Assembly: GCF_964355755.1 (NCBI RefSeq)
Contig: NC_092670.1
Location: 23,931,201-23,995,200 of the forward strand
DNA from: Antedon mediterranea
Taxonomy: Eukaryota; Echinodermata; Crinoidea; Comatulida; Antedonidae
DNA length: 64,000 nt
Direction of reading: 5' to 3'
Shown here: in pieces, positions 1 to 23,369 of the stretch
Position numbering within the stretch: the stretch's first letter is position 1
How the letters are laid out: the number at the start of each line of letters is the position of its first letter
Translations under genes and position numbers: made by a program
Notes under the pieces: generated by a model
What the model was told of the DNA's origin: nothing
Seen by the model: only the letters and a program-made list of their open reading frames with translations
The model's database searches: none

Positions 1-1393
1 TAACAACAAAGTGTTCAGTTTTCGTTTGAAACTGAACTGATTTGGGCGAACGTCTGGTATGCAGGAGTAAATTTGATTGGTTAGAGGTCAAAGTTGTTGT
101 TGCATAACTTTCGTATCGTAAGCGTCGTTCACTAATCTTGTAGCTTGAGCTGTCGTAACGAAGTGGCTTCCACTAATCTTTTCTTGGTTCAGAACTATGG
201 AGTTGTACGCCGCGTACAATACACACTATAACTCTGTAGGTCTGAACAGGCCCTCTATCTGTCCATTCAAATGTTTCTTGGATATTTGTAAATCCAAGGA
301 TAGCCAGTTATTTTATGATGGTAATCCAATTAAACAACACACCAGATGGCCTTTAGTCACATTTATGCACCAATGAGATTGAAGAATTTTCCTACCCATA
401 CATTTGAATTTTTAAGAATAATGATCATTCTTCATTGTGTACACCATAAACACTCTAGGTCAGGAGAAACAAAGGAAAGTCAAAGGTCATCTGCAACTCC
501 ACCATTTAGTAGTTACAAACACTTTCCCTATATTTTTTTCAATCTATTTAAAGGTCACAAACGGCATTTTATGTAAAAATAATTACTATGTGGGCCTTGC
601 GTTAGCCATTATGAAACTTTATTTGTTTGTGTTGAGGACTAAAGAATATTTACAACTTAAGATATTTATAGGTATCAAGAGTGTTGAGATGAACAATTAA
701 TCAATTCCATTTAGTATTATTTAAAGCCCCCTTCCCTACGTTTTTTAGATCTAATTTAAGATCACAAACTATATTTAATGTAAAAATTATACTATATGGT
801 CCTATTGCGATAACTTTTTTCGTCTTTAAACGGTTAAAAATGTGAAAAATAAGTCGATTCTAATAATTATAGCGGCCCGCTATAAATCCCAAAATGTATT
901 GCGCGCGGATTGATATTTTTGTTTTTCACCTGTAATTCGCCCACTTTTCGATCGATCGTGAGGTCAAAACAAATGGAAGACTCCTAACTTTTCAGCGAAA
1001 ATACCGGGTTTTCCCCAATTTGCATCAACGGAGTCTGGCAAAAATAGAAAGACAGTTAATGCAGCAACTATACAACGTCAGGCTAGGTATATAGCTAGCG
1101 TATGATGTTTGTACGTTACCGATGTTTACCAGCTAGGCCTACAAAACTAAGCCTAGCTAGGCTAGGCCTAAGACCGTCCACGAGAGGTCGATCGCCGCGA
1201 GCTACTTAGGTAGTGCATTGTTTCTCACTTTTTATCATAATTTACCATAAAACGTACATTTAAGACAAGGAATGACATGGTTTAATGTTTTTAAAGTGAT
1301 ATATGTATTATTTTCCAAAAAACGTCCACAATTGCAGGGAAGGGGTCTTTAATGTGTCGCAAAATGTAAATTTCTTTCTATGTTTTTTTTCAG
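1..1393. other. No gene seen; presumed last intron of an upstream FOXRED2-like copy
   Basis: No convincing coding sequence is visible. The stretch ends in a pyrimidine-rich tract and CAG at 1391-1393, a normal splice acceptor for the exon at 1394. I looked for a match to the preceding exon of the complete gene (12026-12128) and saw none. That is expected if this intron is as long as its counterpart (about 4 kb), because the exon would then lie outside the window. Two TAGGCCTA octamers occur at 1134 and 1163. Confidence 0.5.
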
Positions 1394-1604
1394 TCACATT
1401 TTACCTCTTCGTCGCTTCCTTGAGAATTGTATGGGTCAAGATATTCGCTATTTCTTTGATGATTTTTGTTTTAAGAGCGCATTAATATACACCGAAGTGC
1501 CACTCATGTGTAAGCAGTACTACATGAAAGGTCAGGGGTTACCAGGAACAAAATCATTAATGGTACACAAGAAACTGTTATGTGGGGATGAAATGAGATG
1601 TTAG
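1394..1604 (+). CDS. Terminal coding exon of a second FOXRED2-like gene (partial)
   Basis: This 211-base segment follows a T-rich tract and CAG acceptor. It reads from a phase-2 codon boundary (S-H-I-L-P-L-R-R-F) to C-G-D-E-M-R-C and TAG at 1602-1604. It has the same length, phase and stop as exon 10 of the complete gene at 16135-16345. I count seven mismatches in 211 bases (about 97% identity): four silent, and three giving I/M, V/L and H/R. The flanking sequence on both sides is not recognisably similar between the two copies. The simplest reading is the 3' end of a tandem FOXRED2 paralogue whose other exons lie upstream of the window. Alternatives are an isolated duplicated exon or a haplotype-related assembly duplication. 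It cannot be an alternative last exon of the downstream gene because it lies upstream of that gene's start. Confidence 0.8.
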
Positions 1605-2168: not shown

Positions 2169-2920
2169 ATCTAAAATGCAATGGGCTCTGGCATTCAATT
2201 TCAAATGCAACCATGATCATATGTATTGTGTTTGTTGATTTAGTCTACCTCAATTTTGTTTGAAAGTAGCACATATTAAATGTAAAGGAAAGTGTAATAT
2301 TACTGTATATATTTATAAGGTGCATTTATTTTTAGGATGGACATTTGTGGTTGTGGATTTACAAATATATTTATTTTTATTTTTGCTTAATTCTATATTT
2401 CATTAAACCTTTGGAGATTAGTTTATGATAGTGGGCAACGTCATACATTTTATTTTTAAATATGGTGTTTTCTACAAGAAATACGGTAAATAAGACAATG
2501 AGAATATCTACACTTTGCCATTTAATTAAAAGTGTTTTGTAAAATTAATAGATGAGATAATGTCCAAGTAATTTTTGTCATCCAGTTTGTATACCATTGA
2601 TGATAATATATATTTATTATATTTTATTTAAGTTTAATATTGCCAAGGTTTGCCAATTAGTGATTATTTTTTTGTAAATAACAAAAAGAAGAAAATATAT
2701 AAATACATGATTGAAACTTTCTTTATTGCCACAAAATAGTAATTATGTCATTTTATTGGCCCCTGCAACCGTCAATTATATATTGTGTAACAGTACTAAA
2801 GTTTTCAATAAAATATTATACAAATACATAATATTATAATAGTAATAAAATTAAGTTAAATGGCAGCATTAATTTGTAAAACAATTTTGTATTACCAAAA
2901 TATTATTTACAGTATCTTTA

Positions 2921-3620
2921 TATTTGCTATATACTGAATATTATAAACCAACATTAAGAACATACAATAAATGAAAACGCAAGGCGAATTTGTTCGCGCT
3001 AATCGAAAGTGTCAGCTTATACACATGCGTATTCATGTTTCCATCTTCCAAATCCCTCTCTACGAATGCGTATAAACTGACCTTTCGATTCGCCTAGTGG
3101 AAAATCTGCTTTATGTTGTCCTTGTATCAAAATGATCAAAACTGGTATTCAGCTGTACACACTTTTGATGATTTCGGATTTTTATCTCACAATTATACAC
3201 ACTAAATAACAGTATTAAATTCTTTCAAAATAATTGGTCTTTAATTAGAGAAATTCTCACTGTAAATAATGTAGAACATTATTATTTATATTTGCTATAT
3301 ACTGAATATTATAAACCAACATTAAGAACATACAATAAATGAAAACGCAAGGCGAATTTGTTCGCGCTAATCGAAAGTGTCAGCTTATACACATGCGTAT
3401 TCATGTTTCCATCTTCCAAATCCCTCTCTACGAATGCGTATAAACTGACCTTTCGATTCGCCTAGTGGAAAATCTGCTTTATGTTGTCCTTGTATCAAAA
3501 TGATCATTTCGGATTTTTATCTCACAATTATACACACTAAATAACAGTATTAAATTCTTTCAAAATAATTGGTCTTTAATTAGAGAAATTCTCACTGTAA
3601 ATAATGTAGAACATTTATTC
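2921..3620. repeat. Tandem direct duplication, period about 368 bp
   Basis: The segment beginning TATTTGCTATATACTGAATA at 2921 recurs at 3289 and stays nearly identical for over 300 bases. The second copy lacks a stretch of a few tens of bases that the first copy has after AAAATGATCA. Each unit also holds an internal inverted pair (AATCGAAAG...CTTTCGATT), so the duplicated unit may itself contain a small TIR element. No coding function is evident. Confidence 0.85.
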
Positions 3621-5890: not shown

Positions 5891-8800
5891 ATGAATTTAT
5901 ATCAAGAAGTATTTTTTATTTTGGTAATAATTCAAGCCAAATGTGTATTATCCAGTGATGAACATGTTAACCACCAGTATTGTATCGTGGGTGCTGGGCC
6001 AAGCGGACTACAGATGGGATATTTTTTAGAAAGATCTAATCGTGATTATATGATATTTGAGCAGAATAATGTCAGCGGATCATTTTATGTGAAGTATCCA
6101 AGACATCGTAAACTTATTAGTATTAATAAACGACATACTGGACAGACAAACAAAGAGTTTAACTTTCGTCATGACTGGAACTCGTTGATTAGCGATGATG
6201 AATCTCTTCAGATGAGGTAGGTATATATATATATTTACATGTTCAGTAGCAGCAGATGCAATGACTTAAACCAATCAATGTACTGTATGTTTTCCTCGAT
6301 CCATGAGACAAACATCTGATCTTGTGGAAATGTTGCATATACTTTGTATATAAATAACTTATAGTTATAGTAAATTCTTATAGTGCATAAACAATGAATC
6401 TCCAGTACTGTATTTTAGGACAACTTTAGAACAAGAATCAATTTAAAAAATATAATTTTTGCCTAATGGTATACTGCTACGCATTTTAAAGAAAAAGTTA
6501 ACATAAAACAGCCTTTGTCGTATTGTTGAAATCGGTTTATGGAAGGCAAAGCGATCGCTACCCAGTTGGCAAAGTAGACCTAACTATTTCCAACCCAATC
6601 TTATTTAAATAGTTCTCTATCAATTTCAATCCGACAATGTGCTACTCTTTTAATAACCGGCTGGAGACTTTTCCAACAAGCTCATTTTTCATCTCTATCC
6701 ACGCATTTCCATTTTCACCAAATACTCAATTAAGATATTTACTGTATATTTTATTTCAGATATTATTCCAAAGATTTCTTTCCCCAAGCTGATATTTTTG
6801 TGAAGTACTTAAATGATTATGCAACCAAGCTCCAGCTCAATATCCAATACAATACAAGAATACGTAACATTAGAAAGAAGACAATAAGTGAAGGCCTAGA
6901 TGTATTCTTAATGGACGATCAGAATGGAAAAACATACTCTTGTCAGTAAGTTATATGCACAGGCTGGTGCACACGAAGACGGAGCGCATTTTTTACGCTA
7001 CGAACGATTACAATGTGAACAACGTTACGTGTAATGATATCAGTTTTAAACTACTAGATAATAACACGGTATTTGCAACTCCAGAAAACTCAGTTATAAC
7101 TAAAATAAATTTGCAGCTTTAATACTTTTGGTGAACCATTTTTTAATCTTATAATTATATTTTGTAGGGTAATGATAATGGGAACGGGGATAGGAACTCC
7201 GAATAAACCATATTTCGCTGGCATGGAACATACCGATTCATACGAAGACATGTCGATAAATACAGATGATTTCGAAGGAAAATCAGTGATGATCTTGGGA
7301 AGAGGAAACTCTGCATTTGAAACTGCTGATCATATAGTAGCTTCGACAAACGTGATCCATATGATGGCAAGATCACGGATTAAACTTGCATGGGAAACCC
7401 ATTATGTTGGGGATTTGAGGTTTGTTTTTACTTCTTTTATCTTACCATGGAAGGATCTCACCCAGACACATATTGAAAATTATCTAAAGTACCACTTGCT
7501 TTTGTAATGTCGATTTTAGCAGCAGTGGATAAGTTAATATAATAACAATTGACAGACAAATAATACAACAAAGTTTGACGATATTGTAAATTATAATAAT
7601 GAGATTGATCTTTTTAAACAATCTACTTATACTTCGCCTTTGCGTAAGTATTATTTGAAATGGATATTAAATATTGATATATCCCAGTGAGATTCTGTTT
7701 CATTTCCAATGGGATTTTAGAATAATTCACTACTACTTTTTAATACTTTTTGTCAGAGCTGTAAATAATGGATTGTTAGACACCTATCAACTAAAATCTC
7801 TTGATGGCGTTCTGGAAGCAAGCATGGCAGAGGTTGTTGTAATGAAAAACGAGGAAAATGGAAAGCTAGGGATTGTAAGAAAAGAGCAATTGGGTGTTGA
7901 GATTGACTCAAACTACACGACTGTAAACCACACTGTGTTTCACAAACTGATAGAACAAATAGATGATAATTATTCTCTGAGACAAGAATATGATTACGTA
8001 ATACGTTGTCTTGGTTTTTTGTATGATTTTAACGTTTTTAATTCGTAAGTTACTAAATTGTTTCAATAAATAAATTAATTGCAAATACATATAGATCTAA
8101 AATGTATATTATGTTTACTCGCTCACAACTTTTAAGGACACATTTTAGTATAACAAAAAATTGAATTTTTTTTTTGGATATTTGAACTTTTGAGTATTGA
8201 GTAAATGTAAACTTGTTGTATAATATAGAACTTTCAGTCCGGAACCAACAGCCAACGGAAAATATCCTACTATCAATGCAGCATATGAAGTAAAGAATGT
8301 AGCTGACATGTTTGTGATAGGGACGTCGTCACATAGCCTGGATTTTAAGAAATCAGCTGGGGGATTTATACATGGCTTCCGTTATTCTGGTAAAGCTGTT
8401 ATTTTACTAGGCCTACGTAGTGTAGAAATATTTTCCGTAATATAAATCAATAAACAGTAGAACATGGATAAAGTAAAACTATCTGTTAAACCATGGAAGA
8501 GTGAAATTACTGCATTTTGACTCTTCCCCTGTTAAACTAATGTATTCCCAGCTTATCTCCGTTATAAAGGTTCAATAATTGCCTATTATTTGTATAATTC
8601 TTTTTTTTTTCATTCAGCTCGAGCATTGCATCATCTTTTAGAATACCGCTACCACAACATTCCTTGGCCGTCTACCTTTCATCCAATCAGTGAACTGATC
8701 AACAACATTATCAAACGGGCCAATGAAGCTTCTGGAATCTACCAAATGTTTACCCAACTTGGAGATGTCATCATTCTTCACGAGTAAGTGAAAGCTCCAC

Positions 8801-11800
8801 GAAAATCTATAAAGGCCTTTTCACACAGAACTTCGGCAATATTGCGGTAAGCAAGCCGGCGTTATTGCCGGTCTAAACCCATTCACACAGAAGGTAATAT
8901 TACGGTAATTTTACCGTCTTCTGTGTGAAAGGCCACAGTGGAAAGGCGCAATATTTAAAGATTACTGTCTTCATAAAATAGAGGTCGCACTTTTTGAGGA
9001 GAAAAAAAATGGCGGGCACCTGCCGCCGGCGACAACATGCCATGCGCGTACTTGTTTGCTGATGTTGTTTTGTGTGTCCGTCGTTTAGTTTTTTTATTTA
9101 CGATGCATAAAATTTATATTTTTGCCCAACGCCACTCCGTGCTAATAACTGCCCGATCGTGATGGCCATTCTACAGAAACAAAATCTATTAGGCCTACAC
9201 GCGAATTTAATTATCAGAAGCTGTTATGAGCTAGCACCGGGAGCGCGCACCGGAGGATGTTCCTGCTAGAACTATGCTAACTAGGGCCTAGGCTTACGTA
9301 CGCTACAGCAAGTTAAATAATCTTTGGACCAACATCTGTTATATTTTTATTATTATTGGCCGTATTCTTCCATTGTATTATTTACAAACTAACCTAAAAA
9401 TATATATATATATAATGGATATAATCTAATAATTTGGCCTAAAGTAATTGCCACAGTCTTTCTCAATCAAGGAAAATGTCCCGAATTTATCCTTGCTTCA
9501 CTGCGTAAGCAGGCGTTATATCGTGGACTCTTCACACAGATCAGGCTTACGACCGTGACGGTAATATTACCGCAATTTTACTAGGTCCAGAGGCGGTCTA
9601 ACGGAAGCCGGCATTAAGGGGTTTTTACCCTTTCACACATAAGCCGGCATTCGCGAATTACCGCAATATTACCGTCTTACAGCTCTGTGTGAAAGGGGCT
9701 TAAGTTTCACATCTTTTACCAATGGCTGCTTGAACAGCCAGTCAATTATGCCGTTTGAAGCACCTCTTTCGTTTTATACCAGGCACAGCTTCGTGTTGGC
9801 CTAGTTCACCCATTAGTTTTGATTAAATTAAACTCTATAGACTATACACACTCATATTTCTATTAGTCTAGTTGAATTTCCTTATTTAGACCAGTTCCAT
9901 TTTCCATGAATTCATTTCTAATGAAAATGAACACTGAATTATTTAGAAGTTGATCAATTAAAATTTTTGGATTTCACTTAAAAAATGATTATTCAAGGAT
10001 TGAACATCGCCACATTAGGCTACTTGTACAAGTTTACTCTAGGCCCATGGTAATAGTTATTATCAAAATTAAAGGTGCTGTATAAGTTTGATTTTGACGT
10101 TGTACTTGGGATTGTACTTTTGCACCCATTGTTCACCAGTTCCCCCTTAATATTGTGGGCTATTTCGTATTTTCAGGAATGGCCTTTATGATTATCTAGA
10201 AGAGTTTCCTCTGCAGCTTCTTCACAAACTTCCAGAAGTTAGTGGCAGGAATGCTTCAAAAGTTATTGTGCTGTCAATGGAGTATGGAAAGGATTACTCT
10301 GGTAAGGTCTTGACGGCATGGCTTGAACAGCAAGACACAGTGTTTTTTTGGAGATTAATTCAGATAGTCTGTCAGGTGGTGTTTTCTACTGTGTATACAT
10401 ACGTCTAAATGTATATTGAGAAACTGTGCATTATAGTAATAATAATGTTGTACTAATACGGTATTAGCAGAAAACTTGTTTCTCATGCACACTATGGTGT
10501 GTTTTTTAATTTTTGTTTTAAATACTAGGTCCAGGAAAAGATGTCTTTAAACCCGAGAGATCAACTGGAGACCCCGCCAATGCTCACCAGTCTAACTTTC
10601 TGCATCCAGTGTTATATTATTACCAGTCATTGCCAACAGGTCAGCAGGCCTTTGCCAAATTTGGCTTTTATTAATTCATGTATAGTATTCATAGAATAGA
10701 CCTAGGTCTATTTGACTAATACACATGCATATATGCATACACAGGCCCTACAATTTATCTTTAATCTTAGAAATGAAAAAAATGAAGCTGGTTGAACATT
10801 TAAAATAATTTAATAGCGCCATCTATAATATAGCACTTGCAAAGAATTATTTTTCTGTTAGGCACCCTCATCCGATTTCCATAATAGTGACACTGTAAAA
10901 AGAATATTTTCAAATTATTTATATCCATTTTAAATTATTATTAAAAGTGTCATCAAGTCTAAAATTTAAATTCGTTCCTAGTGATGCCCTTGACATTTTT
11001 AAATCATTTTGAATTATGTATGAGTATATAAATATTATACGGTGTGTATTTATTATCTTTAATTTGTCTTTATGACAGCGGATATGACTAGCACATTGTC
11101 TGCTCTACTTAGCAGTTTAAAAATATTTTATTTGGTAACCTGTGTTTAAATAATATTTAAAGCTCTGTCTACATATTTGGGCGCATCACACTTCTTTGTA
11201 AAACTAGGTTGATAGTGTTGACAGAGCTTTACAAACAGAAATTAATATTATAGTGAAAATATTTAACTATACAAATATACTATGCCAATTCTTTTAAAAT
11301 ACAGTAAGATTTTGTAATAACTTTTATTAAAACTACAAAATGGCCTATACAAAGTTTGATTTTAAATTGTCATGTTTTTAATACAATACATCAAGTATTT
11401 TTATCTAGGTTTTGCTAGTTACTCTTGGAAGAACTAAACCGATACAAAAGTGTAACAGTTACTTGCTACAGTCATGGAGGAAAAAAATATTATAATAATA
11501 TTAATATTATTTTTTCCTCCATGCTACAGTTAACAAAATGCTCATGTAAAATATTTAGTCTTGTGCGATTAGCGCTTTATAAATGGCTTAAACAATTCTC
11601 CAAACATAAACTCAATAGTGGTGATTATTGTTTTATAAAATTGATGTTGAGTTTAGTTTTAAATTTGAACATTAATTATTATGTTGAGCTTTATAAATTC
11701 TAAACCATTAATTACTGTAATCCACGTTATATGGTATTTCAGCTGAGATTGTGTAAATTAATCTTTTGATTCTGTGCGTGGGCCCAGATCTCGTATATTA

Positions 11801-14800
11801 TTCTTGGTAATAAGACCAGATTAAACTTTCAATCAGAAAGTCTGGGGTTTTTGATTTGCACAACTGCATGCACGCTATTCAGTAAGAGATTGCAAACACA
11901 CACAGCCCTGGGAAAATGAAACTGAAGATAAATTATAATGTTCTTTCTTGAATAAAAAATCTGTTTGTGTTTTATTCTGTTTTCAGTTGATTGAATTTTA
12001 TTTATTTACTTTTTTTTGTTTATAGAATTTGAAATGATTACGAGAACGGAAAAGCAAGTTCTTCCAACACCTCATCGAATTCACCATATGGTTGAAGACT
12101 TTCTGACAGACTTCTCTGCACCTCAAAGGTATGTCTCTTTCAGTTTTGGTATAACTGTAAGTGTAAGAGAAGGGATGTGAGAGGGAGGGTGAAGGCAAAG
12201 GAATTTGCCGAAGCTGTGGGCTTCATTAACACACAGTTTGGGTTTTAGAGGTAAAGGTTGCTCTTTAAACTTGCTAAAAAGATTTAATGATATATACCGT
12301 AAGACAAAAATTGTCAATTCACATACTCTACAGTAGGCCTAATTACTTACAAATTATCTTGTCCATAAACCTCTGTATTATACTACCCCCAATATAACAG
12401 GAAGGCAGTGCTTTAAGGTGAATGTTTTTGTTACGTGTATTTAGTTTTTTAAGCTGACTATAATTTATTTATCACTTGACACTGTACAAAATCTGTTAGG
12501 CAAATCTGTTTAAATACTGTACAACAAAACTTGTCAATGTTTAAGTTACAATCATTGCCCATCAGCAATACAAAATTATTTCTTTTAATTCTTTTGCCAT
12601 TCGTTAATACATACTTGTTTATCATTAGACAACCTGAGGCATTGAATTTGTCTTTATTTATAATATAAAAGTAAAATTGAATAGTCTCCGGCAGGTGTTC
12701 TTAAAGAAGATTTGTTTTGTAAGGATTGCTTTATATTACTGCACCTTCAAGCTAATGTGTTTATTATTCACGCCTTGATCAAACAAAAACAGTTTTAAAC
12801 ATAAACCTATCTTCTCTGCTTATATTAACTATTTTATTCTTTCGAAGAATTGATGTCATTTTGTAAGGTCAGAAGGATATCAATTACCTTTTTAGGAGGG
12901 GATAGCAAAAATATATCATTTTCTTTACATAATATCTGATATCAATTTTGTTTTCAAGATTCTGAGTTTAAATAATGAATATGATATGGATGTCGTGTTT
13001 ATGAAAGTAATATCTCATCAAGAATTCTATTTTCTTTAATAATATTTTGTAGAATTTTAATAGCAAACTTTCTTTTATGTATATTTTTTCAACACATCCA
13101 TCTGCAACAAAACCCGGACACCAGGGTTAACCAAAAAGGGTTCTCCTCCTTTAAAGTTAACACAATAGATGTAGTATATGCCCGTTTAGATATCATTAAT
13201 AATTCCACTTGCTGGATAAGCATATTCTGCGGCACATCTATACGGTAGTTATGCCACCTTTTATCCTGGGAGTTTAGTTCAACTTACAAAAGTGAAAAGA
13301 AGTTGAAAGCAACAGTTTCTTGTTACAGTACATAACATAGATCTTTACACGTTTCCACTTTCTCGTTTTTAAACATTTGTAACATGTCAACTGCCAAACA
13401 AATCGCATACTGAAGCATTTGTGTGTTTGGAACAGATACGTCATCAGGACAGTCTTTTGTCAAATGGTTGTCATTAGCCCTCATTAACCCTGATTTGATA
13501 CGTCAATTTGCAAAAAAAAAACACCAAAAAAACGCATTTAAAATATTTCTGATACTGCTTGCCCCTTGGATGATGCAGAACCATGTCACGCATGTAGCAC
13601 TTAATAACATGTGTGTACAACTTCTGTGTAAACGTGAGCAATCAAAACAAATGTGTTTGATGCAAATGAATCCTCTCGTTCCTAATTGATCCGTGTGTGA
13701 ATGCACATTTGCACTTAAACAGGAGCAGCTTTGAACCTCAATTGAAATGTTTCTATTTATGTTTTCTATTAAGTTGCAGTAACATTTTATATATCGTTTA
13801 CCAGACCGCTTATGATTCCTGGAATACATACATAGCTATGTTACACTACAGTATAAACGATTTCAACTTTACTAATATAATACTATATGTAAATCTTTAT
13901 ATGCAATTATGTTATTTCATAATATTTAATTTAATGTACCTTGAAGACATAGTCATGTGTATGTTAATGCTTTTATTACATTACTATAATTGTGTAGTAC
14001 AGTATGTATTTCAATTTTCATACATTGGGCTAAGTGGAATTGTTACCTTCTTTATAAGTATAAAGATGGGTGATGTAAAGAAAAATATAAAAAGCTATCT
14101 GTGAAAAAAAACGTTTATCAAATGAATGAATAACTATACATTATTGAAAGGTTTTGGGTAATAACCTGTAATTTTCCAGCTGTTTCTCGACTGTCATTAA
14201 AATAAAATTGAAGATTCTTCAACATAAAATTCACATCTAAGGTTTTCAAAATATGAACCCTTTGGCTTTTTGCGTTTATGTAATTTATCTTGTTCTATTC
14301 AAAGATTTGATAGTTTACAACATGTTAATATGTCTCCTATTCTAGCAGACTTCTAAAGCTTATCTCTAGGATATCACACTGCAGACAATTACGATTTAAT
14401 CAACTATTTACGTTTCTTACCTTAGGTCATGTTTGTTCGTACACTAACTTTGAATAATTGTTATCAATTTGTTTTTATTTTTAGGGTTTATAATCTTGTT
14501 AGTAATACTTAATCACCAAAGAAATACATTTCTGCTGTAGTAGTCACTGTATAGTCCTAATAAAACTGAGAGTCTTGTCACTCCGGCCATTGTCCTTTCC
14601 AAGTAGGCTGCTACATTCAAAACCAAAATGGCGATATTTTACCCGTTTCAAACTAAAGATAGTTTATAATTCTGTTCTTATTTTTGTATAATATTGGAAA
14701 CTTAAGATGAATATTATTACAAGATAAACAACTGATATGTTATTACGTACTGACATACTTGGCCACCTGCTACTGTAGAAGAAAAATGTATTATAGTTTA

Positions 14801-15997
14801 TTGTTGTTTAATTGTTAACACAAGGGGCCTACTGGAATTTTCTATTTATTTAATGGATAGCTATATAAAGATGACATTGGAGTTATAGCTGTTTTCATGA
14901 AGTTTTTGTAATTCACATCAAACCAAATTTGAAAAAAATGTATTAATTTATTTTTCTTTAAGAATCATCTAATAAAACGGCAAATCCCAATAGAGCTACT
15001 TAGTAGTTTTATCTGTTATAGCATTAACATGATTTTTAAGACACAACCATTCTGATAAGCTTTGACAAGAAAATAAAATCACTTACATAGATTTCCACAG
15101 GGGTAAAAATAGAATTAGTCCCTATAGTACATGAACGATAGAAGCTGTAATATTTTTTGAAATAACTAGTAGTAAAATTTATAATAAATAAGTAGTATCA
15201 CACAGTAGTGATAATACTTATTTCATCTAAATAGGACTACTGTTCTATTTTATAGCTAGACATTTAAATTGTGGAGTTAGTGTGAGATTTTTAATATTGT
15301 GTACTACTTTTTTCCACTGGTACGAATCCAGTGAATTTAAGACGCGCGCTCTCCCTTTTGACATCTATTTTGACAAATTATTAATATTTACCGGTACCGT
15401 ATGTTAGTTCTCCTATTCCTGCAGGTTCCTACCAAGGGAGTTTCTATAAAATTTTCCCATTCCATGTCCAATGGTATATCAAGCAAAGACCCAATGTTGG
15501 ATCAACTTCTCCGCTTTTACGGGTTCCCTAATATTTAGCGTTTGCCATTAGAGGGTGTATAAATCTCAATAGAAAAGACTGCACTATAAAAATATATCGC
15601 TACATAATGCATATAAAACCATTGAGGCCCTCCATGATAAAACCAAGTAAAAATGTAAGATACTTCTTTTTATGAAACTTTGCAAGATTTTATTAGATAC
15701 GATAAATTGTTCTTCACATAAACTGCACTCACATTAGTCATTTTAAAGCAATATATCAAAATAAATGTGTATGGTTTTTACTTGTAATCATAAAAATACG
15801 GTCAATATAGCTTTTAATCAATCATACCTGATATATTTTTAAATTCCAAAATTACAGATTTTCTGTATATGTACTGTATAGTACAGTATGTACCGAATTT
15901 TTTTCTTAATGATTTTTTTTTGTGGAAAGATCTATAGAAATGACAAAACTAAAAATAACTTACTGAAATAATAAATGGGAATAAAAAATTAATAATG

Positions 15998-16033
<36 letters not shown>

Positions 16034-16345
16034 TCAGTATATATTTTGCACTGAATATGTACAATATATTTGCACTGAATATGTACAATATCTACATCTA
16101 TATTTTATATTAATTATCCTCTATCTTTTTTCAGCCACATTTTACCTCTTCGTCGATTCCTTGAGAATTGTATGGGTCAAGATATTCGCTATTTCTTTGA
16201 TGATTTTTGTTTTAAGAGCGCGTTAATGTACACCGAAGTGCCACTCATGTGTAAGCAGTACTACATGAAAGGTCAGGGGTTACCAGGAACAAAATCATTA
16301 ATGCTACGCAAGAAACTGTTATGCGGGGATGAAATGAGATGTTAG
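5891..16345 (+). CDS. FOXRED2: FAD-dependent oxidoreductase domain-containing protein 2 (ERFAD-like), 10 coding exons
   Basis: Coding exons are 5891-6216, 6760-6945, 7168-7419, 7757-8044, 8238-8389, 8618-8783, 10177-10301, 10529-10639, 12026-12128 and 16135-16345. All introns are GT/AG, and the exons sum to 1920 bases, in frame, giving 639 residues (human FOXRED2 is somewhat longer, about 684). Residues 1-22 look like a cleaved signal peptide (hydrophobic F-F-I-L-V-I-I). An FAD-binding GAGPSG follows at about 34-39, and a second nucleotide-binding motif GRGNSA, typical of flavin monooxygenase-like enzymes, is at about 215-220. Several N-x-T/S sequons (NYT, NHT) fit a lumenal ER protein. In vertebrates this flavoprotein works with OS-9, SEL1L and ERdj5 in ER-associated degradation, probably supplying reducing power for disulfide reduction. 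The ATG was chosen because it starts the signal peptide. Odd point: the C-terminus reads GDEMRC and has no KDEL-like retrieval signal, unlike the KEEL end I know for the human protein. A second, nearly identical last exon lies at 1394-1604. Confidence 0.92.
8811..9701. mobile_element. TIR element of about 890 bp in FOXRED2 intron 6
   Basis: The left end AAAGGCCTTTTCACACAGAA (8811-8830), followed by CGGCAATATTGCGGTAA, is mirrored at the right end by TTACCGCAATATTACCG and CTCTGTGTGAAAGGGGCTT (to 9701). A second internal pair around 8880-8940 and 9530-9660 repeats the TTCACACAGA and GTAATATTACCG motifs, so the element is compound or internally palindromic. There is no transposase frame, so it is non-autonomous. 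It sits between exons 6 and 7 and should be spliced out. Confidence 0.65.
11160..11231. mobile_element. Shortened copy of the 1771-2168 TIR element
   Basis: It begins AAGCTCTGTCTACA and ends TAGTGTTGACAGAGCTTT, matching both ends of the element at 1771-2168 but lacking nearly all of the interior. It lies in FOXRED2 intron 8. Confidence 0.6.
11315..11395 (+). repeat. Partial copy of a dispersed ~270-bp repeat
   Basis: The stretch around CTTTTATTAAAACTACAAAA followed by TCATGTTTTTAATACAATAC resembles the 3' third of the repeats at 47604-47875 and 54908-55177. It lies in FOXRED2 intron 8. Confidence 0.45.
11473..11523. repeat. 51-bp palindromic micro-insertion with flanking direct repeat
   Basis: CATGGAGGAAAAAAATATTA on the left is mirrored by AATATTATTTTTTCCTCCATG's complement on the right, making an almost complete palindrome. 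The same octamer, GCTACAGT, occurs immediately to the left (11465-11472) and at the right border (11523-11530, sharing one base with the palindrome). This is what a tiny foldback insertion with a 7-8 bp target-site duplication would leave. Confidence 0.6.
12129..16134 (+). other. FOXRED2 intron 9 (4.0 kb); no nested gene seen
   Basis: This is the longest intron of the gene, from GTATGT at 12129 to TTTTTTCAG ending at 16134. Open frames inside it (for example 13423-13689 and 13697-14104) are AT-rich and hydrophobic without recognisable domains, so I treat them as chance. The acceptor region is preceded by a TA microsatellite at about 16001-16030 and two copies of GCACTGAATATGTACAATAT (about 16049-16090). 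Confidence 0.6.
16001..16030. repeat. (TA)n microsatellite
   Basis: An uninterrupted TA run of about 30 bases lies roughly 100 bases before the acceptor of FOXRED2 exon 10. Confidence 0.9.
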
Positions 16346-16535
16346 CGTTAGCAAACATAAAGGGATTGAATGTTGGTTCAATTAATTTTGAAGTGTCGAT
16401 ACACTTGCACTAGTGTACAATTATAAATCTAAGGCCAGTTTGTTTTTTATTTTATAGTTTATTATTATTTATTTATATGGATGATGACTTCTGTCCAAAG
16501 TAAATTTAACTTGATATTCACCAATTAAAACAAGT

Positions 16536-17190
16536 AACCAGGTTTATCTGAAACATAGTACAATAAGTAACCAGGTTTACCTGAAACCTAGCACATTACT
16601 TAACCAGGTTTATCTGTAACATAGCACATTACTTAACCATGTTTATCTGAAACATAGTGCAATAAGTAACCAGGTTTACCTGAAACATAGCACATTACTA
16701 TAAACCAGGTTTATCTGTAACATAGCACATTACTTAACCAGGTTTATCTGAAACATAGTACAATAAGTAACCAGGTTTACCTGAAACCTAGCACATTACT
16801 TAACCAGGTTTATCTGTAACATAGCACATTACTTAACCATGTTTATCTGAAACATAGTACAATAAGTAACCAGGTTTACCTGAAACATAGTACATTACTT
16901 AACCAGGTTTATCTGTAATATAGCACATTACTTAACCAGGTTTATCTGAAACATTGTACAATAAGTAACCAGGTTTACCTGAAACCTAGCACATTACTTA
17001 ACCAGGTTTATCTGTAACATAGCACATTACTAATAACCAAGTTTACCTGAAACATAGCACATTACTGAACCAGGTTTATCTGTAACATAGCACATTACTT
17101 AACCAGGTTTATTTGAAACATAGCACATTACTTAACCAGGTTTATCTGTAACATAGCACATTAAGTATTAACCAGGTTTATCATAGCACA
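16536..17190. repeat. 33-bp minisatellite, about 20 units
   Basis: The unit starts AACCAGGTTTATCTGAAACA and continues TAGCACATTACTT. About 20 copies follow each other, with more decayed copies trailing to about 17460. Variants (TATCTG/TACCTG, GAAAC/GTAAC, GCACATTACTT/GTACAATAAGT) alternate in a partly regular order, so blocks of several units were amplified together. The array starts about 190 bases after the FOXRED2 stop codon and could be in its 3' UTR if polyadenylation is distal. TACCTG-type units contain CAGGTTTACCTG, an inverted pair of E-box-like half sites. Confidence 0.92.
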
Positions 17191-18390: not shown

Positions 18391-20318
18391 GTCATTTATG
18401 ATGAAGGTAAAAGCATACATTTATGGTCGAATTTATTGGTTTAAAATACCTCGAATTCGTTTCAGAGTAAGATCCGATCAAATACCATCAACCTTGTATA
18501 AGGTACATATTTTTAGAATCTATAATTGTATGTTTATAAAACCCTCTGGTAAGTTGTACAATATTTTATGATGATATTTATATAGTTATTTGACTTATCG
18601 CAGTGTTTGTTATGGTGTTGAACTGCTTTCTTTTGAGAACTAAACATAACTTGATGTTAAGTGTAGTATTTTTGAAAGACTACTGTTGTTCTTGTCTTTG
18701 GATCCAGAACACTGTTTGACATTAGGCTCCATTTGTTGCCAAATCAGATAAATGTTGTGTAAAAGATGGATAATGCGCCAGTCCATGTTTTTAAATCACT
18801 GATAACAGATTTTTCAATTAAATGAAAATTCTTGGAAATTGCAGTCAGTGGTATTAATCAAAGTCAGTCATTGTTTATCATTGATGATAATATCCTATAG
18901 AACAGTGTTCCTGGAAAATTAACAAGAAGAGAATTAAAAAAAAAAAAACAAGAATGTCAAAGAACATTATCGCCCACTACACAAAGTAAATTGAAAGTAT
19001 TAAATCCGGTCTTGGTGGTAAATTAAATGCATAATATAGAAACAATGTTTACATACAAACACAATGTTTTTTATTGATTCATGATTAAGGAAATGTGATT
19101 AGAAATTAATACCTAAAACAATATAATTTATATTTTTAAATAGGATCATTGTTGAATTCTTTAATAATAAGCCTAAATTATTATTTAAAACTTAATATTT
19201 TATTACAATTACTTCTTGAGCCCCTAATGCACTGTCTCAGAATGCCACAAGGCTTTCAAACCAGCCGCGCGGTGCATTCAAATAATCGTTTTTTTAGTTC
19301 CTATTTACATATTTCCCCTTTCCATAATTATTTTCTACACAGTTTGTTTCACAATTTATTTTTGTTACAAAAATAATAGTGTAGGCCTACAAACAACCGA
19401 CTGAGATTAGTGTGAGCAATTCAACCCACGTATTCTGAGGGTGGACACAGTGTAGGCCTAATATTTTTATTTCTATTATGATAAAGAAGCGACGTAAAAG
19501 CTGATATATCCCTAAACGGATTGTGGTTAAAATATATTAATGCGGTTCAGAATAATACATCTAGTAATTTATCATGGGTATATTTCACTCTGTTTAAATC
19601 GACAAGCGCAGTATCTATATATAAATTTACGTAAGGCCAAAATACGGTAAATCGCGCGTTATTTCTAGAATGTTTACTCGATGGTATATAAAGTTAGTTA
19701 GAATCTCGGTACTGATTTTAACCAGCTGATGTAACCATGTTTACTAATTAAATTGCGTTAGATAATTAGTAATTGACGATTAAAATGAATTTGGGTTCAA
19801 CGATTTGCCCCAAATAGGGGTGTTTTCCGATCGTGGTATACACTGTCTTATGGATGTCTTCATGAAAAATACCTGCACACAATAATACGAGGATGCTTTG
19901 CATTTTCCTATCTCCTCCTACGATAATTGTTTTTAATAGCTGAAAACCGGTTGAACAGTTCGAGTACAGTATCATAATGTTGAAGACAGGCCGATTTTCT
20001 TTAAAAAATACTATTTTGATAGATTTAATATACGTTTATACAAATGTATTGATTTGCGATGAATGGAACATTCCAATCTCTCAGACTCCCAGTTTGTAGG
20101 TAAATTTATGAGTCCTTGGTTTAACACAAGTAGGTAAATTTATGGGCCCTTGGAGAATAAAACTTATATAGTATTGCAATACTGTACTTTGAGAATATTG
20201 TAAATACTGTACGTATTAACCATTTTTGGTCGCCATTTTAATCGCAATTGTCTTACTGTGAATGTGGTTTCTGTTAGATATATAAACAAAATATACAAAA
20301 AACATGTATTACTGTGAC
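18391..20318. other. Intergenic; no gene seen
   Basis: No recognisable coding sequence was found. Near the end there is a short direct repeat (GTAGGTAAATTTATG at about 20097 and again about 34 bases later). Confidence 0.5.
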
Positions 20319-20444
20319 TGTGGGTAGATTTTTAGTCCGGAAGTGCTGGGTGACGCCGCACTACATAACATCAGGGAAAATAACATCAAATAGTCTTTTT
20401 CCACACTTTATTTGTTTCCAAATATTTATGTGTAGGTTTTAAGG

Positions 20445-21447
20445 ATGTGTTTGGGAAGGTGTAGAAAGTCTTTAAACACAGGAAGTTTAAATGTTCGCGG
20501 TATTAGAAGCGATTTTCAGAAACGAGAACTAGCCAGCGATGCAGCTAAATACAAGCTTGACATTCTCGGGGTCCAATCGCACCACCTGGCGGGTAGCGAT
20601 GTCATTCAAATCAGGCCTGACGATAACAAAGGCAGATATGATTTCTTCTACACTGGACCCGCAAACAACACAAGACATGGCGTTGGAATTCTAGTTGAGA
20701 GCAGTTTTAAAGCAGAATTTAAGGAAATATCGGAGAGAGTAATTACAGCCCGAATCAACATAGAAAGTAGAGGAGGTAAGCCTGGGTCGAGGCGTAGGCC
20801 AAAACCCAGGAATGTACTTTTCGTATACGCATATGCACCTACTTTAGAACATAGTGAACAACAACCTTGGGATAGAGATAGGTTCTATGACGAAGTACAA
20901 GAAGCATTAAATGAAGCAAAAAACAGAGATATCTTAATATTAGCTGGAGATATGAAGGCAAAAACGGGGGATAGCCATCATGATTACCCACAATGTGTAG
21001 GAAGATATGGTAAAGGAAAAACGAACAATAATGGAACACAGCTAGTTGAATGTGCACTAAGAAATAATCTAGTACTAACAAATACCATGTTTAAACATAA
21101 GATGTCACATAGGACTACGTGGGAATGCCCGCAGAGACGCGATCAGCATAACGATCAGAAGAGTGGAGAGATCAGACGATTACGATTACATTCTAGTTAA
21201 GAATTCACACATGAAGCTAGTCACTAACGCAAGAGCATACAGTGGTACGAGAACATACACTGATCATAGATTAGTCAAGACAACTTTAACACTACAATGG
21301 TATAAATTAAATAGTAACGCTAAGAAAACCAAACAAATAGATGTGTCAAAACTTCAAGCACAACAAAACAGACAAACATATCAAAGAGAGGTATCGAGAT
21401 GTATACAATCTGTAAACATCCAGGACCTGGAACCACAAGAGAAATAG
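20445..21447 (+). pseudogene. LINE endonuclease domain, frameshifted
   Basis: It reads from ATG at 20445 in one frame to about 21170, then continues in another frame to a TAG at 21445-21447. Recognisable exonuclease/endonuclease/phosphatase landmarks are S-L-N-V-R-G near the start, D-I-L-G-V-Q, R-H-G-V-G-I-L, an A-G-D-M-K-A-K-T-G box, and T-D-H-R-L-V (the SDH-type box) after the frameshift. Two usually catalytic positions look altered. The expected Glu after V-Q is Ser, and the Asn of the GDxN box is Lys. This suggests loss of nicking activity even apart from the frameshift. Confidence 0.8.
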
Positions 21448-23369
21448 ACCAAATTAACGACAGTCTTTCAGAATGTAGCATTGGAAGTGGTTGGTTACAG
21501 GAAAGCAAAGTCTAAATCAAACAATAAATATATACAAGAGTTATCGAAGAAGCAGAAACAGTTGAGGTGCGACATAAATTCATCAAATGACAAATCAAAG
21601 AAAACAAAACTTAGGAAAGAAAGAAATCAAATCATAAAGAATATTCATACTGAACTTAATAAAGAAAAAGAAGACACACTAAAAGAAAAGATAGCTGAAA
21701 TTGAAAAATTCAAAGATGACTCAACAAGAATGTACCAAGCAGTAAAAAACCTAAAACTTAACGAAAATAAAAGACTTGTGGTAGAAACAGAGTTCGGTAT
21801 AACAACAAACGAAGAAGAGCAGGTAGAAATAATTACCAATTTCTTTGAAAACGTCTATCACAAATCACAAGAAAAACCTATAAACGAAAACATTAAACCT
21901 ATTGAAATGAAGTCTCCCTTTACAGGTGATGAAGTTGCCAAAGCAGCGAAATGCTTAAAAAATAATAAAAGCCCAGGAAGTGACCAAGTATACTCTGAAA
22001 TGGTAAAATATGCACCTATAGAAGTTTTTAACCACATAGCAGAAATATATAACCAAACAGCTAAAACAGGAAACATACCTAAAGAAATCAACGAAGGCAT
22101 ATTGCATCCAATACCGAAACCAGGCAAGAAAAAAGGTCCACCAAAAAACATCCGACCCATCATCCTACTGTCGGTTCTTAGGAAAATGCTAGCAATATGT
22201 TTACTAAATAGGATAAACGACAGATTAGATGAACATGTCCCTGTAACACAGGCCGAGTATCGCAGAGGACGAAGCACTACCGAACATACATGCAAAATGT
22301 TAGCAGAAAAGGCAATTACGTCATCTAACTACGAAATAATATTACTACTACTTGACATGACCAGTGCATTTGACACGGTGCGGAGGAATACTCTATTCGA
22401 CATATATTACAAGATGATGAACTACACATGTTGAAAGTTTTGATAAACAATGTAAAATTAAGCGTTCGAATTGGAAAACAGACAGGAAAATTGTTTACTA
22501 CTACACTAGGAGTACCACAAGGTGACTGTATGTCTCCGATACTGTTCACACTATACCTAGCAAAGGCACTCGAATCAGCAAACACAACACCACTACCCCT
22601 ACAACAGATTAATATCCAGATGCAGTATGCAGATGACATTTCATTTATTAGCGACTCAAAAGAACACATAACTAAAATAAAGAAATATGTAACAGAGAAA
22701 TTAGCAGAATTCAATCTAAAGATAAACGAAAGTAAAACAGAAGACTACCTAATAGGAAGAAACACCGATAGTAAATGGGAAGAATGCAAATACCTCGGTA
22801 GTAACTTGGACACAGAAAAAGACATCAAAAGAAGAAAATCACTATAGCAGCTATCGCATATAACAAGCTGAAGTCGTCGCTAGAACACAAAACGATGTCT
22901 ATAGACGTGAAATCCCGTTTGTTTGACGCATACATAGCAAGTATTTTCTTATAATAACAGTGAACTCTGGGTACTAAACACAAAATTACAAGAGAGTATA
23001 GATATATATCACAGGAAAATGTTGCGAAATATGATAGATATTAAATTAACAGATAGAGTGTGTAACACGAAAATATACGAGATAACAAAACAAGAAGAAT
23101 GGAGTAAAAGAATTAAAGGAATGAGACTAAAATGGTATGGACACATAATTAGATTACCGGATGATACCCCAATCAAACAAACAATGAAGGAAACTAACAG
23201 GAAAGTAAAACGACCCGTAGGAAGACCAAGAAATAACTGGATGAATCAAATAAAGAAAGACTTACAAGGACTAGTAGACACTAACACAATAACAAACCAT
23301 CCTGCCATAAACAGAAAAAAATGGAAACAAATTGTGGAAAGCGTAATGTCGGAAGACGGAAAACGTTAG
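21448..23369 (+). pseudogene. LINE reverse transcriptase domain, frameshifted
   Basis: The same frame resumes after the TAG and runs to 22434, shifts to 22428-22847, shifts again through about 22848-22955, and finally returns at 22956-23369. Reverse transcriptase blocks are visible in order: K-N-N-K-S-P-G-S-D, I-P-K-P-G then N-I-R-P-I, the palm D-M-T-S-A-F-D, G-V-P-Q-G-D, and the catalytic Y-A-D-D at about 22628-22639. The C-terminal part (W-Y-G-H-I-I-R-L-P, G-R-P-R-N-N-W) is the usual tail of this family. A lysine-rich, probably coiled region (about 21500-21780) links it to the endonuclease. The frame breaks make it non-functional as one protein. Confidence 0.85.

Follow-up and report, generated by a model that had tools for sequence, protein, structure and literature searches.

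According to a review on Caenorhabditis, most reports of gene conversion between paralogues concern exons; introns, which diverge more quickly, may hinder conversion because they fall below the homology threshold, and 15% of the detectable events in one cited survey run into introns (PMC3966223). For the African cichlid duplicates aqp3a1 and aqp3a2, a second paper describes a fragment, identified with GENECONV, that matches a single exon and was copied between the two genes (PMC7408487). The gibbon L and M opsin genes, a third system, are arranged in tandem and are homogenised in patches: their introns are homogenised and the central exons are kept apart by selection (PMC3213168). Homology restricted to exons is also treated in a section of PMC6563257.

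Here we compare these systems with a pair of tandem genes, A and B, in the crinoid Antedon mediterranea. The window is the whole stretch of 64,000 nucleotides that was analysed (contig NC_092670.1, from position 23931201); coordinates are relative to its first base, and negative values lie upstream of it. As in the Caenorhabditis paralogues, the coding parts of A and B are highly identical and their flanks are diverged. Unlike those described there, the similarity excludes the intron interiors, and there are two complete copies whose ten exons are of unequal silent divergence (PMC3966223). The cichlid fragment, like the similarity between A and B, coincides with exon sequence, but it comprises one exon and in A/B several exons are concerned (PMC7408487). 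The tandem arrangement and the patchiness along the gene are shared with the gibbon opsin genes, which are the reverse of A/B in the parts that are homogenised and the parts that are kept apart (PMC3213168). We regard the A/B pair as a clear case of a known process.

Two complete FOXRED2-like genes in tandem

The coding extent of gene B is 5891-16345. A complete paralogue, gene A, was found in the 40 kb upstream of the window and runs into the window (-10655 to 1604), so that the coding parts of the two genes are spaced 4.3 kb apart. Exons 1-9 of A (-10655 to -717) are located on the same contig, before position 23931201, in agreement with a sequence-only reading of the window that had proposed a tandem paralogue upstream carrying the other nine exons. 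Each gene has ten exons, with equal phases and GT/AG borders, and both open frames are intact (648 amino acids in A, 642 in B). Among the 643 aligned codons, stop included, 563 encode the same residue; 6 codons face gaps. When exons 1-2 were compared as protein with the genome, four matches were obtained, the two exons at each of two loci. The genome thus has two copies, A and B, both of them complete ten-exon paralogous loci on one contig. The same reading had raised the possibility of a haplotig, that is, a single locus assembled twice. This was rejected, given two complete tandem genes on one 41-Mb contig with dissimilar introns.

Intron 2 of A contains a second, degenerate version of the exon 3 acceptor together with the first part of that exon (-5300 to -5226). 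We considered this piece as an outgroup for the direction of conversion and set it aside in view of its small length and its possible origin from A itself.

Both genes are putatively named FOXRED2 (FAD-dependent oxidoreductase domain protein 2), a name that we presume to apply. The Pyr_redox_3 domain (PF13738) was detected in both proteins (E 3.2e-33 in B and 1.8e-31 in A), and the pyridine nucleotide-disulphide oxidoreductase domain expected of FOXRED2 is present in A and B. Comparison with PDB and NCBIfam gave weak matches only, to other flavoproteins. We therefore refer to the pair as FOXRED2-like, a putative assignment. Vertebrate FOXRED2 has a KDEL-like ER retention tail; the A and B proteins end in DEMRC (1590-1604 and 16331-16345), without such a tail.

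The last exons match and their flanks do not

According to the sequence-only reading, the last exons of the two genes (1394-1604 and 16135-16345) match over 211 bases with seven mismatches, four silent and three replacement, share phase and stop, have an acceptor of their own and stand in unrelated flanks. All of this was reproduced. Read in frame, the 7 differences in 211 bases are 4 silent and 3 replacement, they fall at positions 1394, 1415, 1481, 1487, 1563, 1567 and 1583 of A exon 10, and the replacements are I/M, V/L and H/R. The phase is equal, both copies stop at TAG, and the blastn match (1385-1604 vs 16126-16345) comprises exon 10 plus 9 bases of the acceptor tract. In the flanks of B exon 10, 0 of 2310 bases align to A beyond a 45-base margin. 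A search of the genome (354 Mb, 18 contigs) with exon 10 and the 9 intron bases gave two matches, the query itself and the other copy, out of two candidates, both of which were scored; with E-values of 1.2e-109 and 5.2e-100, chance is ruled out. The exons within the window are listed in Table 1.

Table 1 Exons of genes A and B located in the window, with differences between the two copies
Feature	Coordinates	Strand	Observation
A exon 10, last coding exon	1394..1604	+	acceptor, phase and stop all match; frame open (648 aa) once joined to exons 1-9
Acceptor tract of A exon 10	1385..1393	+	9 intron bases identical to B
B exon 1	5891..6216	+	about 33 first codons strongly diverged from A, rest nearly identical
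B exon 2	6760..6945	+	10/186 differences from A; third positions 3/55
B exon 3	7168..7419	+	12/252 differences from A; third positions 7/72
B exon 4, diverged	7757..8044	+	50/288 differences; third positions 12/65
B exon 5	8229..8389	+	14/159 differences; third positions 8/47
B exon 6	8618..8783	+	8/168 differences; third positions 4/50
B exon 7, closest	10177..10301	+	2/123 differences; third positions 1/39
B exon 8, diverged	10529..10639	+	17/111 differences; third positions 8/31
B exon 9, diverged	12026..12128	+	19/105 differences; third positions 8/27
B exon 10	16135..16345	+	7/211 differences from A; third positions 3/61

Silent divergence is unequal among exons

We compared third positions in codons that agree between the two genes in residue and in their first two bases, and found 60 of 534 such positions to differ over the whole gene. 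For the coding differences per exon, codons split by an exon border were assigned to the exon of their middle base; hence exon 10 has 6 differences in that count (6/210 coding bases), not 7 (third positions 3/61). Coding identity per exon ranges from 82% to 98%, and third-position differences range from 1/39 to 8/27, or about 3% to 30%. That silent divergence is unequal among the exons is indicated both by permutation (p = 0.0007) and by window variance (p = 0.0057); the exon-by-exon comparison therefore speaks against the uniform divergence that the earlier reading had named as the contrary outcome. The longest run without a silent difference along the A/B coding sequence was not significant (p = 0.145).

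Silent sites are fairly close in exons 1, 2 and 6 and in exon 3 over its first half, and further apart in exons 4, 5, 8 and 9. Within exon 3, third positions differ at 1/36 in the first half and 6/36 in the second. Exon 1 (36/327 coding differences, third positions 6/87) has 3/17 to the left of its break and 3/70 to the right, a difference that is suggestive only (Fisher p = 0.086). Compared with all other exons, the silent sites of exon 10 (3/61 vs 57/473) are not significantly closer when taken alone (Fisher p = 0.13), and exon 7 is closer than exon 10, with 2 of 123 coding bases differing. The last exon is therefore one among several close exons and no singular case.

The mean change in silent divergence is 0.113 across exon junctions and 0.058 within exons. 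A larger change across junctions is what exon-bounded tracts predict, but the difference has p = 0.135. A two-state HMM of tract borders on the coding sequence was also tried and rejected, as its states were driven by replacement-rich stretches and yielded no clean tracts; third-position GC is barely different between the two states.

Intron interiors and exon edges

In local alignment, with 8 bases trimmed at the donor side and 20 at the acceptor side, the nine matched introns score 21-34, and mismatched pairs in the 9 x 9 matrix reach 41 (the scores are compared by range only). As a check of power, B introns were mutated with short indels, one replicate per intron. At 7%, 16% and 25% divergence the score is at least 49 in 9/9, at 35% it is above 41 in 5/9, and at 45% in 0/9; these simulations are without large insertions and so overstate power where intron lengths differ. 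In view of the simulated introns, scores of 21-34 make the real intron interiors look at least 35% diverged, if large insertions are no explanation.

Traces of similarity between the introns of A and B occur only within about 50 bases of the exons. At bases 8-50 from the exon edges, matched pairs are slightly more alike than mismatched ones (acceptor p = 0.027, donor p = 0.004), and on account of this slight residual similarity a complete absence of intron homology was rejected. On the acceptor side the similarity is highest at exons 3 and 8, not at the close exons 7 and 10, and blastn matches at exons 3 and 8 continue for 34 bases into the preceding intron. The edge traces fit introns of common origin that are almost saturated.

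Probable recurrent conversion of exon islands

We consider it probable that the two genes result from an old tandem duplication followed by recurrent interlocus gene conversion of the surviving exon islands. A FOXRED2-like gene would have been duplicated in tandem long ago. The introns, UTRs and flanks of both copies would then have diverged nearly past recognition, and coding selection would have held the ten exons similar. Short, non-reciprocal copying from genomic DNA would have re-homogenised single exon islands at different times; we infer these conversion events, the order in which they occurred and the DNA template. Exons 7, 10 and 2, most of exon 1, and parts of exons 3 and 6 would be the islands converted later, whereas any conversion of exons 4, 8 and 9, or of exon 1 at its signal-peptide end, would date from long ago or would never have taken place. 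Tracts would end near exon borders because there is little homologous DNA beyond them. The putatively homogenised stretches have 5-11% silent differences, as compared with neutral surroundings in which intron interiors are beyond recognition. The sequence-only reading had singled out the last exon and proposed gene conversion confined to it. The match of this exon is real and conversion is the best explanation, but all ten exons match between the copies, others are close too and exon 7 is closer still, so the restriction to the last exon does not hold.

If recurrent conversion is the right reading, the A/B pair separates two requirements, in that selection keeps islands of homology and conversion then evens out silent sites within these islands. 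As a clock for tandem genes of this kind, silent divergence would be unusable, because the exons of one gene range from about 3% to 30% in their differences at the third positions compared. The minimal homology for conversion is usually studied in artificial constructs; short islands such as exon 7, with 125 bases, bear on this quantity in animals.

Turnover of non-coding DNA in control arrays

The alternative that survives best, although we judge it improbable, is a younger duplication in which introns and flanks turned over fast by indels and replacement, with no conversion. Controls were drawn from carboxylesterase and P450 arrays in this genome and comprise 192 exon pairs from 70 exons. 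The control anchors are part of 112 and 111 profile matches, restricted to the fetched arrays, and are not exact exons; pairs with less than 78% identity or fewer than 15 comparable codons were dropped. The pairs are non-independent, and many of the youngest rows come from three near-identical esterase genes. Over the ten youngest rows there are differences at 6/1265 silent and 52/7672 aligned non-coding sites, a ratio of 1.4 that is based on non-independent rows below 0.015, picked for their low silent divergence. From this ratio, the flanks of exon 10 would be expected to be about 7% diverged and the introns of the gene about 16%, and its low value in young pairs makes fast intron substitution or strong silent constraint unlikely. 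Among rows with sufficient aligned non-coding DNA, the six that follow (silent divergence 0.016-0.030) have non-coding divergences of 0.040, 0.031, 0.008, 0.007, 0.018 and 0.020. In a further two, with 0.031 at silent sites, the values are 0.144 and 0.147 (3% vs 14%).

Alignment of the control flanks was also related to silent divergence. Pairs with at most 2% of the masked flank aligned make up 1/15 below 0.03, 5/12 at 0.03-0.06, 15/22 at 0.06-0.10 and 33/53 at 0.10-0.15, where the mask was built from pairs with silent divergence of at least 0.15 and may hide some true intron alignment; unmasked flank fractions are inflated by unmasked exons. At 10-15% silent divergence, the alignable non-coding remnants are only 12-21% diverged and much else is unalignable, which indicates that insertion/deletion turnover contributes in this genome. 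Four of the ten youngest rows have 44-78% of the masked flank aligned and the others have all of it; the partly aligned flanks may reflect large insertions or the edges of duplicated units.

These control pairs at 10-15% silent divergence and the four partly aligned young rows are consistent with fast turnover at the A/B locus, as are the repeats nearby and the intron lengths, which differ strongly between the copies (543 vs 2680; 1386 vs 149). Other observations argue against it. Over about 25 kb, the main matches of the ten youngest rows contain 29 gaps, between 0 and 9 per match (with coding sequence included and gaps counted on both sides of the alignments), so small indels are not extreme. 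The intron interiors of A and B have no detectable remnant and yet edge traces remain, which points to saturation rather than replacement. In addition, silent divergence is not uniform among the exons of the gene.

Silent-site constraint, template and assembly

Next in order, and quite improbable, is strong constraint on silent sites at the RNA or DNA level (splicing enhancers, structure or overlapping function), likewise with no conversion. Replacement and silent divergence rise jointly across the exons (rho 0.71, p = 0.02), as such constraint, or other effects tied to selection, could produce, but the constraint would need to be switched between neighbouring exons of one gene. In young control pairs the silent rate is about 70% of the non-coding rate, so general constraint looks weak. 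Exon 10 has no fold signal in either copy (z +0.79 and +0.85), and an Rfam scan of the window returned no match at gathering scores; constraint at the RNA level, which had been among the options of the sequence-only reading, thus finds no support.

Conversion templated by spliced RNA or cDNA is very improbable. The similar blocks are the exons, and adjacent exons (1-3, 6-7) are similarly close, both of which a spliced template could produce, but introns are retained, and smoothness of exon closeness along the transcript is not significant (p = 0.21). The edges of the exons also speak against it. The runs of intron bases identical between A and B are longest at close exons (11 donor plus 7 acceptor bases at exon 7, and 9 at the exon 10 acceptor) and shorter at old ones. 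Closer exons have longer runs over the 18 splice edges (Spearman -0.75), and taken per exon the run and the exon divergence have a Spearman coefficient of -0.89 (one-sided permutation p = 0.00025). Exon 6 is an exception, being fairly close, yet with 2 identical acceptor bases only. The long intron identity at close exons favours a genomic DNA template over spliced RNA for the putative conversion of exon islands.

Hardly credible is an assembly artefact in which short-read polishing copied the exon letters of one paralogue into the other, which would touch only similar stretches, but is opposed by the dissimilar introns and the distance of 14.7 kb between the two last exons on a single 41-Mb contig, by the lack of any N in the window or the 40 kb upstream, and by a silent divergence graded from 3% to 30%, unlike the polishing of near-identical stretches.

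Other tandem families of this genome

Unequal silent divergence was found at p < 0.05 in 11 of 46 control gene pairs (uncorrected, with non-independent pairs) and was not significant in 35. These gene pairs, each with at least two exons compared, were grouped by hand from the arrays designated C2, C5 and C3, with the C1 arrays left out. In the P450 pair 9636542/9644040, silent differences rise from 17/184 to 21/81 between two consecutive exons (p = 0.001), and a third P450 copy is about equidistant from both genes. Among the esterase pairs, unequal silent divergence reaches down to p = 0.0025. Some pairs in the P450 region C5:9636542-9644699 and the carboxylesterase region C2:35765836-35818772 have exon-specific closeness and unalignable non-coding flanks. 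Because the same decoupling occurs in some P450 and carboxylesterase pairs, the A/B pair is not unique and fits a wider habit of this genome.

We tentatively suggest, as a doubtful extension, that exons could be independent units of concerted evolution across the tandem gene families of this genome. If so, exon islands of about 125-210 bp would be converted singly after the introns lose nearly all homology, a single gene would be a mosaic of exons that differ in age, and dating tandem duplicates by whole genes would be in systematic error.

Repeats and elements around the genes

Several repeats are located around A and B. In the spacer between the genes, a 222-base stretch (2917-3138) is repeated with 100% identity at 3285-3506, 368 bases on, and 3166-3283 recurs at 3501-3619 with 98% identity; the repeats in 2917-3619 are a recent local tandem duplication. 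Downstream of A, about 198 bases (1951-2148) are self-complementary, with 82% identity to their own reverse complement, and form a foldback or MITE-like element. An array of 33- and 99-base repeats (16535-17182) follows B exon 10 at a distance of about 190 bases. Further on, 19612-20000 is a dispersed repeat of about 390 bases, with at least 40 near-full-length matches including itself (among the best 40 of 2196 candidates, which were scored), and two further stretches similar to it (about 92%) occur upstream of A. The region 20436-23369, also downstream of B, contains a LINE-like element in which endonuclease and reverse transcriptase are matched in different reading frames.
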